The notes under the pieces were generated by a model. It saw only the letters and a program-made list of their open reading frames with translations, searched no databases and was not told where the DNA came from. Positions 40,810-43,079 of a stretch of DNA of 64,000 nt are shown here, in pieces (positions within the stretch are counted from its first letter, which is position 1; each line of letters starts with the position of its first letter). Both the position numbers and the translations under genes were made by a program. Origin of the DNA: Sunxiuqinia elliptica (lineage in GTDB: Bacteria > Bacteroidota > Bacteroidia > Bacteroidales > Prolixibacteraceae); the NCBI RefSeq assembly GCF_900113005.1, contig NZ_FONW01000008.1, forward strand, positions 1 to 64,000. Reading direction: 5' to 3'.

Positions 40810-41832
40810 ATGAGACACACCTGCTTTTTGATCCTTTGCGGACTTTGGTTTTCCGTTTCAACACAAGCCCAAAAGGCTACCGATAAAACCTCCGGGAACC
40901 CAATTTTCAACGATTGGTATGCCGATCCAGAGGTAGCCGTCTTAAACGATAGCTACTGGATTTTTCCAACTTACTCAGCAAAGTACGAAGAGCAGGTGTT
41001 TTTTGATGCTTTTTCATCCAATGATTTAGTGCATTGGGAAAAGCATGAACACGTATTGGATACCGCAATTGTTCCATGGGTTCACAAAGCCATGTGGGCG
41101 CCGTCAATTATCGAGAAAGATGGTAAGTATTACCTGTTTTTTGCAGGTAACGACATTCAAAATGAAAGCGGTCCGTATTACGATGCCTCACAAGGCGATA
41201 AAAACAAACAAGGCGGCATCGGTATTGCTGTTGCCGATCATCCGGGAGGCCCCTACCGCGACTACCTGGGCAAACCATTGATTCAGGATTTTTACCACGG
41301 AGCCCAACCGATTGATCAATATGTTTTCAAAGCACTGGATGGCCAATATTACATCGTTTATGGCGGATGGGGACATTGCAACATTGGACGCTTAAGCGAT
41401 GATTTCAAACGCTTAGTCCCTTTTGATGACGGCCAACTGGTGAAAGAAATTACTCCCGAAGGTTATGTAGAAGGACCAACCTTCTTTATCAAAAACAACA
41501 CCTATTATTTTATGTGGTCTGAAGGTAATTGGGGAGATTCCAGCTATCGGGTCGCCTTTGCCATGGCTGACAGTCCATTTGGCCCGTTTGAGCGCGCGGG
41601 GACCATCCTGGAGCAAGATCCTGAAATTGCCACAGGAGCAGGGCACCATTCCATTTTGCATGTACCAAACTCCAACGATTGGTACATCGTCTATCATCGT
41701 CGGCCAATTCCGAACCAAGGACGAGATCACCGGGTTGTTTGCGTTGATCGCCTATTCTTCAACGAAGACCAATCCATCAAGCCTGTGCACATGACCTTTG
41801 AGGGTGTTCAGGCTAATCCAATCAACCAATAA
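40810..41832 (+). CDS. family 43 glycoside hydrolase
   Basis: A 340-aa exported enzyme with a signal peptide of about 20 residues (ends SVSTQAQ). A five-bladed beta-propeller of GH43 type is indicated by the general-base Asp in NDWYADPEVAVL (about 40), the pKa-modulating Asp in IDQYVFKALDGQYYIVY, and the acid Glu in YVEGPTFFIKNNTYYFMW (about 221). GH43 enzymes remove arabinose or xylose from plant polysaccharides; the specificity here is unknown. It starts 17 bases after the AsmA gene, an unusual neighbour for a glycosidase. Confidence 0.9.
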   Translation: MRHTCFLILCGLWFSVSTQAQKATDKTSGNPIFNDWYADPEVAVLNDSYWIFPTYSAKYEEQVFFDAFSSNDLVHWEKHEHVLDTAIVPWVHKAMWAPSIIEKDGKYYLFFAGNDIQNESGPYYDASQGDKNKQGGIGIAVADHPGGPYRDYLGKPLIQDFYHGAQPIDQYVFKALDGQYYIVYGGWGHCNIGRLSDDFKRLVPFDDGQLVKEITPEGYVEGPTFFIKNNTYYFMWSEGNWGDSSYRVAFAMADSPFGPFERAGTILEQDPEIATGAGHHSILHVPNSNDWYIVYHRRPIPNQGRDHRVVCVDRLFFNEDQSIKPVHMTFEGVQANPINQ

Positions 41833-41957: not shown

Positions 41958-41965
41958 TAGCTTTG
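41958..41965 (+). promoter_or_regulatory. -7 element for the corA leader transcript
   Basis: TAGCTTTG followed by C is a perfect TAnnTTTG match. No strong TTTG is seen 19-20 bases upstream (only a T-rich CTTCTTTT region). Transcription would begin near 41972, about 20 bases before the small leader frame. Confidence 0.55.
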
Positions 41966-41992
41966 CAGCGCAAAATAAAAATAGACGATTTC

Positions 41993-42043
41993 ATGGACGA
42001 AGGCCCTGGTCATCATAAATATGAATTATTAACCTCGCTGTAA
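41993..42043 (+). CDS. putative 16-aa leader peptide of corA
   Basis: A small frame ATG to TAA encodes MDEGPGHHKYELLTSL. It starts about 20 bases after the predicted transcription start, behind an A-rich region as usual for Bacteroidota genes, and stops 44 bases before corA. The first six codons contain two acidic residues and a proline. In enterobacterial MgtL, acidic/proline runs are known to make ribosomes fall off at low Mg2+. Here the stop codon touches the 5' arm of one of two competing hairpins that control the corA ribosome binding site. Translation and function are inference. Confidence 0.6.
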   Translation: MDEGPGHHKYELLTSL

Positions 42044-42083
42044 GGGGGCCTAATGCCTCCTACAGACAAATCAAAAGGAGGCA
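42043..42083 (+). promoter_or_regulatory. two competing hairpins controlling the corA ribosome binding site
   Basis: Hairpin 1 pairs 42043-42049 (AGGGGGC) with 42055-42061 (GCCTCCT), 5-nt loop, one G-U pair. Hairpin 2 pairs 42054-42061 (TGCCTCCT) with 42076-42083 (AGGAGGCA), 14-nt loop, eight perfect pairs. They share 42055-42061 and so exclude each other. Hairpin 2 buries AAAGGAGG (42074-42081), the corA Shine-Dalgarno site six bases before the ATG. A ribosome standing at the leader stop (42041-42043) would cover the 5' arm of hairpin 1 and favour hairpin 2. The pairing is visible; the switching is inferred. Confidence 0.65.
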
Positions 42084-42087
42084 CATC

Positions 42088-43020
42088 ATGCTTAAGATTT
42101 TTAAGAGCTTTGGGGGGTATAGTGAGATACCACAAGCTGAGAAAGGATGCTGGATTAATGTTGTTCAGCCAACCCAAGCTGAGCTAAACCAACTTCAAGA
42201 GGAATTTCAGGTTCCTGCTGATATTGTGCAGGATATTATGGACGTTGACGAACGTCCCCGGTATGAAGTGGATGAAGATTGGTCACTAATCATTTTACGT
42301 ATTCCAGTAGAAAGTCCGAACAACGGTGTACCCTATTACACCCTACCTCTTGGCATTTTCCGATCGAATGAAATAACCATCACGCTTTGTTCAACGGTCA
42401 ATCAAGTGCTTCCTTTAGAGAAGCCGGCTCTGTACCGAGGACAAACCTTATTGGTTCATGATGAGCTCAATTTTATCATCAGGCTCTTTTTACGCTCAGG
42501 AAGTTCCTACTTACAGTACCTGAAACAGATTAATCATCAAACAACTCAAATAGAAACCGAGCTTGAAAAATCTGTTCGAAATAAGGAGCTCAACAAGCTA
42601 CTAAAAATGGAGAAGTGCTTGGTCTTCTTCATCACTTCGTTGAAAGCGAACGAAATTGTATTGGCCAAGCTTCGGAATGCGCTCAAGAAAAATATGACGG
42701 AGCTGAATGAAGATCTGTTGGAAGATGCCATTATTGAAAATAAACAGGCTTTAGAGATGTCACAGATTTATTCGGACATCCAAAGTGGCATGATGGATGC
42801 TTTTGCCTCAGTTATTTCAAATAATTTGAACGTGCGCATGAAGCAGCTCGCATCTATTTCCATCATCCTGATGATCCCAACCTTAGTGGCTAGTCTTTAC
42901 GGAATGAATGTCCCCAACCATCTGGAAAGCAACACTTGGGCATTCCCTGTAATCATTATCTTTTCCGTTGCCTTAGCAACCCTCGGAATCATTATTTTCA
43001 GAAAAAAAGAATTGTTTTAG
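42088..43020 (+). CDS. corA: CorA family magnesium transporter
   Basis: A 310-aa divalent-cation channel/transporter. A long cytosolic domain (1-245) forms the funnel, then two membrane helices (about 250-272 and 282-303) are joined by the selectivity motif YGMNVPNH at about 270-277. Family members make homopentamers that import Mg2+ (sometimes Co2+ or Ni2+). The start codon has an unusually strong Shine-Dalgarno sequence for this phylum, located inside an RNA hairpin, which suggests translational control by the upstream leader. Confidence 0.92.
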   Translation: MLKIFKSFGGYSEIPQAEKGCWINVVQPTQAELNQLQEEFQVPADIVQDIMDVDERPRYEVDEDWSLIILRIPVESPNNGVPYYTLPLGIFRSNEITITLCSTVNQVLPLEKPALYRGQTLLVHDELNFIIRLFLRSGSSYLQYLKQINHQTTQIETELEKSVRNKELNKLLKMEKCLVFFITSLKANEIVLAKLRNALKKNMTELNEDLLEDAIIENKQALEMSQIYSDIQSGMMDAFASVISNNLNVRMKQLASISIILMIPTLVASLYGMNVPNHLESNTWAFPVIIIFSVALATLGIIIFRKKELF

Positions 43021-43042: not shown

Positions 43043-43079
43043 AAAACACCCGGCTACTCATCTGTAGTACCGGGTGTTT
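43043..43079. terminator. bidirectional terminator after corA
   Basis: Stem AAACACCCGG (43044-43053) / CCGGGTGTTT (43070-43079), with an inner CTAC/GTAG extension, between corA and the convergent trans-sulfuration gene. Confidence 0.75.

Follow-up and report, generated by a model that had tools for sequence, protein, structure and literature searches.

The corA locus and its leader

The window analyzed here is a 64,000-nucleotide stretch of the Sunxiuqinia elliptica genome (NZ_FONW01000008.1, positions 1 to 64,000), and corA, its leader and their RNA elements lie on its forward strand. At 42088-43020 it carries corA, whose 310-aa product belongs to the CorA family of Mg2+ transporters (Pfam PF01544, E 4.5e-48) and scores 123.9 bits, below the cut-off of 200.75 for the NCBIfam corA equivalog. 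Reading of the upstream sequence identified a TAnnTTTG promoter box of the Bacteroidota type (TAGCTTTG, 41958-41965). The preceding GH43 gene ends at 41832, 125 bases before this box, which makes a separate promoter for corA probable. It is followed by a leader ORF of 16 codons plus stop (41993-42043; ATG 41993-41995, TAA 42041-42043), which encodes MDEGPGHHKYELLTSL. Beyond the transporter gene, an inverted repeat (AAACACCCGG/CCGGGTGTTT, 43044-43079) separates corA from a convergent gene for a Cys/Met PLP-enzyme and is probably a two-way terminator.

Folding and alignment place two hairpins around the end of the leader and the start of corA. Hairpin 1 has its 5' arm at 42038-42049 (core 42043-42049, extension CTGTA 42038-42042) and its 3' arm at 42055-42065 (core 42055-42061, extension TACAG 42061-42065). 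Hairpin 2 uses an arm common to hairpin 1 (TGCCTCCT, 42054-42061) and pairs it with AGGAGGCA at 42076-42083. The first-pass annotation of this DNA had described the promoter box, the small frame ending at 42043 and both hairpins, and its coordinates are right to the base. The stop codon touches the 5' arm of hairpin 1 as it had stated, with the core arm beginning at 42043, and the Shine-Dalgarno-like AGGAGG (42076-42081), which it took for the corA Shine-Dalgarno site, lies inside hairpin 2.

When folded alone, 42041-42064 adopts exactly the pairing 42043-42049/42055-42061 (-11.3 kcal/mol, z -1.9, 14 of 200 shuffles as good), and 42052-42086 gives precisely the stem 42054-42061/42076-42083, at -13.0 kcal/mol and z -5.6, with no shuffle of 200 equally stable. 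An 81-nt fold yields a longer hairpin 1 with CTGTA paired to TACAG, so that its 5' arm takes in the leader stop codon; a separate calculation gave -14.9 kcal/mol for the longer form. Taken as a whole, the 150-nt stretch shows ordinary stability (z 0.13), and its minimum-energy structure is made of other pairings, with neither hairpin as drawn. Among these is a weakly supported candidate "hairpin 0", in which GGCCC within the leader (42002-42006) pairs with GGGCC (42046-42050) in the 5' arm of hairpin 1. By reading, no U run follows either hairpin in the window. In one relative (L053, genome G007), seven T stand right behind the hairpin 2 arm, an arrangement resembling an intrinsic terminator.

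Recurrence and target genes of the leader

A corA search of 61 relatives returned 30 loci. The first-pass annotation had proposed aligning the region upstream of corA across relatives, and the leader codons proved to be kept: the leader is present in 21 of the 24 best corA loci, the window's own included. Among these 24, L016 and L023 have no leader and L010 is truncated by a contig end, its leader sitting on another contig piece (L088); the distant CorA paralogs L025-L030 are likewise without one. A collecting script applied to 173 importer starts found 162 with a leader, 117 of them unique; the 11 starts without one are L010, L016, L023, L025-L030, L095 and L121. In L095, from a 2.2 Mb genome (G722), the hairpins and the later leader codons remain before corA and the conserved leader start is gone, making this a natural case of leader loss.

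The leader peptides fall into two types, one starting MDEGPYH or close to it and the other MDDYH, which are separated by an in-frame loss of Gly-Pro. We compared 130 distinct peptides, 100 from the collecting script and 30 from covariance-model matches. Pro5 is present in 113 of them, and in all 130 two or more of residues 2-4 are acidic, a count in which acidic residue 2 was selected for in 100 peptides because the script demanded ATGGA[ACT]. Among the 30 model-derived peptides, four have Lys2 and one has Asn2, with acidic residues 3 and 4 retained. Residues in this stretch are conserved despite codon changes. In 15 leaders of NRAMP operons, Gly4 is encoded by GGG (8) or GGC (7) and codon 5 is CCT (7), CCC (3), CCG (1) or TCG, a serine codon (4); in 15 MDEGP-type corA leaders Pro5 is CCG (11) or CCT (4). 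Of these 15 corA leaders, 14 have GAC at codon 2 and 13 have GGC at codon 4, and such constant third bases may reflect an added RNA constraint.

The promoter box recurs as well. Among the 115 unique leaders having 60 nt of upstream sequence, 108 carry a TAnnTTTG box at most 60 nt before the leader ATG, against 2.6% in shuffles, and the distance from box end to ATG is 19-34 nt in 107 of these 108. Within the 5.09 Mb genome of S. elliptica, the pattern ATGGAYGANGGNCC occurs once, at corA, and its reversed control twice.

To describe the targets, a covariance model was trained on 18 leaders taken solely from corA and mgtE loci; no leader of an NRAMP operon or of mgtA contributed to it. Applied to 393 genomes from the order, it gave 50 matches at E<=0.05 in 49 genomes, 10 of them training members: 19 precede corA, 19 mgtE, eight an NRAMP operon and two mgtA, and two lack an importer (L258, L263). 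A Mg2+ importer gene is thus found downstream in 48 of 50 matches, with an intervening short frame in two of the 48 (L248 and L261, both corA) and the G289 match assigned through locus L126. In 140 genomes of the family, 70 matches in 68 genomes (9 of the 70 being training members) comprise 52 corA loci, including L095 with its lost leader start and the contig-end-cut L010, 15 two-gene NRAMP operons, two mgtE loci, including L121, and one importer-less place (L108). An exact-pattern scan of named genomes returned 47 loci (corA 36, mgtE 10, cut by a contig end 1); the family, order and named-genome samples share genomes.

Most target genes were assigned by BLASTP to the window corA, the MgtE of L035 or the first gene of the NRAMP operon, and Pfam confirmed MgtE in three loci and CorA in five relatives. 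The first NRAMP-operon gene encodes MgtE_N and CBS domains, and the second is NRAMP in three of the three loci extended, the remaining operon loci being assigned by the first gene alone. One NRAMP protein was compared with structures and matched chain 7qia, which we take to be EleNRMT, at E 1.2e-106 versus 5.8e-23 for MntH. EleNRMT is described as a Mg2+ transporter (PMC8806188). The two mgtA genes, whose leaders were judged by eye only, score 1206.6 and 1221.8 bits against TIGR01524 (NCBIfam Mg2+ P-type ATPase, cut-off 610.75), and the one product tested against MgtA structures matched at E 3.7e-281. CorA, MgtE, NRAMP and P-type ATPases are mutually unrelated proteins. Since four unrelated Mg2+ importer families have the same leader, Mg2+ is very likely the signal. 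The first-pass annotation had described the leader for corA; that scope was too narrow, since leaders before mgtE, NRAMP operons and mgtA lead us to reject a corA-specific reading.

The S. elliptica genome itself yielded a single MgtE (L213, contig C15), and the 250 bases before its presumed start contain no such leader. At three other places, L121/L214 (G758), L248 (G184) and L261 (G296), a frame of 26, 45 and 31 aa, respectively, comes after the leader and hairpins, and the start of mgtE or corA lies approximately 160-170 bases further on. Possible readings of this extra short frame are a second control tier or a decayed first target.

Named carriers of the leader include Draconibacterium, Prolixibacter, Mangrovibacterium, Gaoshiqia, Marinifilum, Ancylomarina, Maribellus and Anaerophaga. 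A corA leader also occurs in a metagenome-assembled genome labeled Cyclobacteriaceae (L170), through either transfer or a binning error. A model search of 345 genomes of the phylum returned the S. elliptica genome as the sole match; the first filter was weak, and since 11 candidates per genome were scored in the genomes shown, this phylum-wide absence is soft. The single match hints at convergence with the enterobacterial leaders discussed below. No occurrence of the leader pattern was found in the viral contigs searched. The MDDYH pattern was found at 44 places in 295 genomes; of 30 loci read, eight lie upstream of corA (L184, L185, L193, L195, L198, L199, L206, L207) and the other 22 yielded no adjoining importer, and one further place is the leader of L020. 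A separate pattern scan gave 36 places. Reading of 20 loci there revealed seven corA leaders, three mgtE leaders and 10 non-leaders, five more loci were all leaders, and one place was the window.

Comparative support for two exclusive hairpins

The comparison of RNA structure was based on a MAFFT alignment (A5) of corA and mgtE leaders, comprising 69 of the 117 unique leaders, from which MDDYH-type leaders, NRAMP-operon leaders and near-duplicates were excluded. A structure-free search of A5 for conserved stacks put those corresponding to hairpin 1 (12 pairs) and hairpin 2 (12 pairs) in first and second place, far ahead of all others. For hairpin 1, 85.3% of 805 cells are paired, compared with 75.9% when shuffled and 47-53% when slid, and 88 cells are changed on both sides versus 34 in shuffles. 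The corresponding values for hairpin 2 are 79.6% of 803 cells (shuffled 76.0%, slid 44-54%) and 44 versus 20 double-changed cells. None of 500 shuffles matched the paired-cell and double-change values of either hairpin; the count of pairs with any double change is within the shuffle range, being reached by 92 of 500 shuffles for hairpin 1 and 75 of 500 for hairpin 2. The compensatory changes that the first-pass annotation had named as a check are thus present in both stems in corA and mgtE leaders.

Across the 117 unique leaders, the pairing energy of hairpin 2 averages -14.2 kcal/mol with its own partner and -11.1 kcal/mol with swapped partners, and in the median leader 16% of foreign partners are no worse than the native one. 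Hairpin 1 is better than 95% of shuffles in 85 leaders and hairpin 2 in 74. At least half of the hairpin 2 5' arm falls within the hairpin 1 3' arm in 105 of 117, which supports the earlier proposal that the two structures are mutually exclusive. In all 117 leaders, the stop ends close enough to hairpin 1 (+9 nt) for a terminating ribosome to reach it, as had been suggested; only the downstream limit is informative here because the search for hairpin 1 began 15 nt upstream of the stop end. For the other two frames, the first stop lands in this interval in 52 and 22 of 117 leaders, and shuffled leader bodies give 35%. At the level of sequence, the leader, the double-sided changes of both hairpins in corA and mgtE leaders, their geometry and the target genes are comparative observations.

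Ensemble folding was then used to calculate the accessibility of the AGGAGG-like site for different ribosome positions (n=117). Its mean is 0.216 with a ribosome at codon 5, 0.066 with a ribosome at the stop and 0.096 without a ribosome, and shuffles of 0.33-0.40 stand against all real states. Accessibility is higher for the early than for the stop position in 108 of 117 leaders, by more than 0.3 in 29, with no positive difference in nine; the window gives 0.37 and 0.01, respectively, and in shuffled controls the difference is on average of opposite sign. Because early exceeds stop accessibility, the calculation agrees with a switch that is closed once the leader is finished and open after an early abort. 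The ribosome-free RNA was computed to be more closed than the early-ribosome RNA in 97 of 117 leaders, and hairpin 2 is usually favored at computed equilibrium. Given the low accessibility in all states and the closed ribosome-free RNA, hairpin 1 would have to win kinetically, by folding first during transcription. Equilibrium folding was therefore rejected as proof of the switch, its sign being right and its effect small.

The role of the AGGAGG segment poses a separate puzzle. Bacteroidia ribosomes are reported not to recognize Shine-Dalgarno sequences (PMC9976891), and a strong AGGAGG is nevertheless present in the window and in most relatives. Since Shine-Dalgarno pairing is reportedly skipped, masking of such a site may be a doubtful description of what hairpin 2 does. 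The AGGAGG is either a hairpin arm only or the target of special ribosomes, possibly ribosomes lacking bS21. In four leaders (L018, L019, L158, L174), other sequence replaces AGGAGG and yet pairs when judged by eye, which favors the hairpin role, at least in those four.

A putative Mg2+-responsive attenuator and its alternatives

In our view, this locus is best explained, with a probability of about three in four, by a translational attenuator that acts in cis, responds to Mg2+ and has the ribosome as its reader. Transcription would begin just past the TAnnTTTG box, and a ribosome would start the short leader immediately. When Mg2+ is sufficient, the leader would be completed and the terminating ribosome would mask the 5' arm of hairpin 1, leaving the shared arm to pair with the AGGAGG region in hairpin 2 and the importer untranslated. 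When Mg2+ is low, the ribosome would drop off or pause on the Met-Asp-Glu-Gly-Pro start; hairpin 1 would then form first, block hairpin 2 and allow CorA to be synthesized. We infer leader translation, its Mg2+ dependence, drop-off and the direction of the switch. By analogy with characterized leaders, the best mechanism appears to be that ribosomes fall off the acidic/proline start when Mg2+ is low, and the ribosome itself probably senses low Mg2+ and turns uptake on.

Several classes of known regulator were compared with this arrangement. The M-box and other Rfam Mg2+ riboswitches also control Mg2+ importers from the 5' leader; these candidates were set aside, as no Rfam covariance model matched the window at gathering scores or six leader loci up to E 0.1. 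An amino-acid attenuator of the trp type was likewise dismissed, there being no single-residue run common to the leaders and no U-run terminator in the window. Translational attenuators of the erm type share the leader peptide, the mutually exclusive hairpins and an occluded start region of the main ORF. However, drug-induced stalling opens the gene in erm systems, whereas here no drug is involved and the completed leader is predicted to close the gene.

A close functional precedent, which the first-pass annotation had not named, is mgtQ of the Salmonella mgtCBRU operon. In that study (PMC8092293), acidic residues 2 and 5 of this very short ORF destabilize the ribosome and MgtB translation rises. 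The resemblance covers the acidic codons near the start, alternative stems (2:3 and 3:4, with 3:4 covering the RBS of a Mg2+ transporter) and control at the level of translation, in which efficient leader translation lowers and its abortion raises the transporter, as published for mgtQ and predicted here. Unlike the Bacteroidales leader, mgtQ as described there is intra-operonic, serves one transporter in enterobacteria and has a leader-internal first arm; the leader described here stands at the 5' end, comes from a different phylum, encodes a different conserved peptide and serves four target families that are unrelated to each other. In MgtL, EPDP destabilizes the ribosome and raises mgtA (PMC11282234), and in E. 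coli, leader translation is inverse to corA expression (PMC11552253). MgtL and CorL resemble our leader in that the ORF precedes a Mg2+ importer, that corA is one of the targets and that importer expression runs inverse to translation of the leader (published for these two); for MgtL, acidic/proline residues also play a role. Their published outcome is Rho-dependent transcription termination (PMC11552253, PMC11282234), unlike the compact leader and apparent start-site occlusion seen here. A short ORF upstream of a Mg2+ importer, early acidic/proline codons and mutually exclusive RNA structures positioned for control by leader translation place the Bacteroidales leader functionally with MgtL, CorL and MgtQ, and on this analogy it is predicted to work as they do. 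A literature search, mostly open-access, incomplete and at the level of titles and abstract openings, found no such leader described in Bacteroidota. Of the interpretation in the first-pass annotation, the translational attenuator, the likely Mg2+ signal, the exclusive hairpins and the stop position are supported; ribosome drop-off at low Mg2+, the Mg2+ response of corA and the direction of the switch stay predictions, and the account was incomplete in dealing with corA alone and in not naming mgtQ.

The logic of the switch could differ in its details. In a four-arm arrangement such as that published for mgtQ (PMC8092293), the GGCCC/GGGCC pairing would keep the untranslated RNA off, an early ribosome would turn it on and completion would turn it off again. 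This variant is suggested by the GGCCC-GGGCC pair in the 150-nt window fold and by a pairing energy of -11.8 against -10.0 for shuffled arms. However, swapped arms do nearly as well (-11.4), 23 of 117 leaders beat 95% of shuffles, and MDDYH-type leaders gain hardly anything over shuffles and nothing over swaps, so that we regard it as tentative and on the unlikely side. It is less plausible still that the same switch and targets are governed by sensing at initiation, with low Mg2+ reducing leader initiation or ribosome activity and the peptide mattering for an efficient start only. The short fixed spacing between promoter box and leader ATG is consistent with that idea, as are GAC at codon 2 and GGC at codon 4, which look as if nucleotides counted. 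Yet Gly4 within the NRAMP-operon leaders, and Pro5 within both these and the corA leaders, are conserved over differing codons, Gly-Pro is lost in frame between the two peptide types, and the more closed computed state of ribosome-free RNA also speaks against it.

The outcome, rather than the sensor, would differ if the hairpins mainly governed Rho-dependent transcription termination or mRNA decay instead of importer initiation. Termination is the published outcome for enterobacterial mgtL and corL (PMC11552253 and PMC11282234), and the seven T of L053 would suit it; the window hairpins lack a trailing U run, and in leaders of corA and mgtE hairpin 2 covaries with the AGGAGG segment that adjoins the start codon, which renders this outcome improbable. 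Functionless chance hairpins beside a chance small frame would fit the ordinary stability of the 150-nt fold. Nevertheless, the comparative data exclude a chance origin, to which we assign practically no weight: the leader recurs before four importer families with a conserved peptide and double-sided changes, and ATGGAYGANGGNCC is single in its genome, at corA, against two occurrences of the reversed control.

Returning to the ribosome-read attenuator, we lean slightly toward a broader proposal, in which one portable translated leader runs a Bacteroidales Mg2+ regulon comprising CorA, MgtE, MgtA and NRAMP-type importers, with the ribosome as sensor and an origin independent of MgtL, CorL and MgtQ. 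Unusual ribosomes may read the AGGAGG, given that the ordinary ones of Bacteroidia reportedly ignore Shine-Dalgarno pairing. The presence of one leader before four unrelated importer families makes Mg2+ sensing in Bacteroidales directly testable. If the proposal is true, ribosome destabilization as an ion sensor would have arisen more than once, and the leader would offer a handle on translational control in a class that mostly ignores Shine-Dalgarno sequences.
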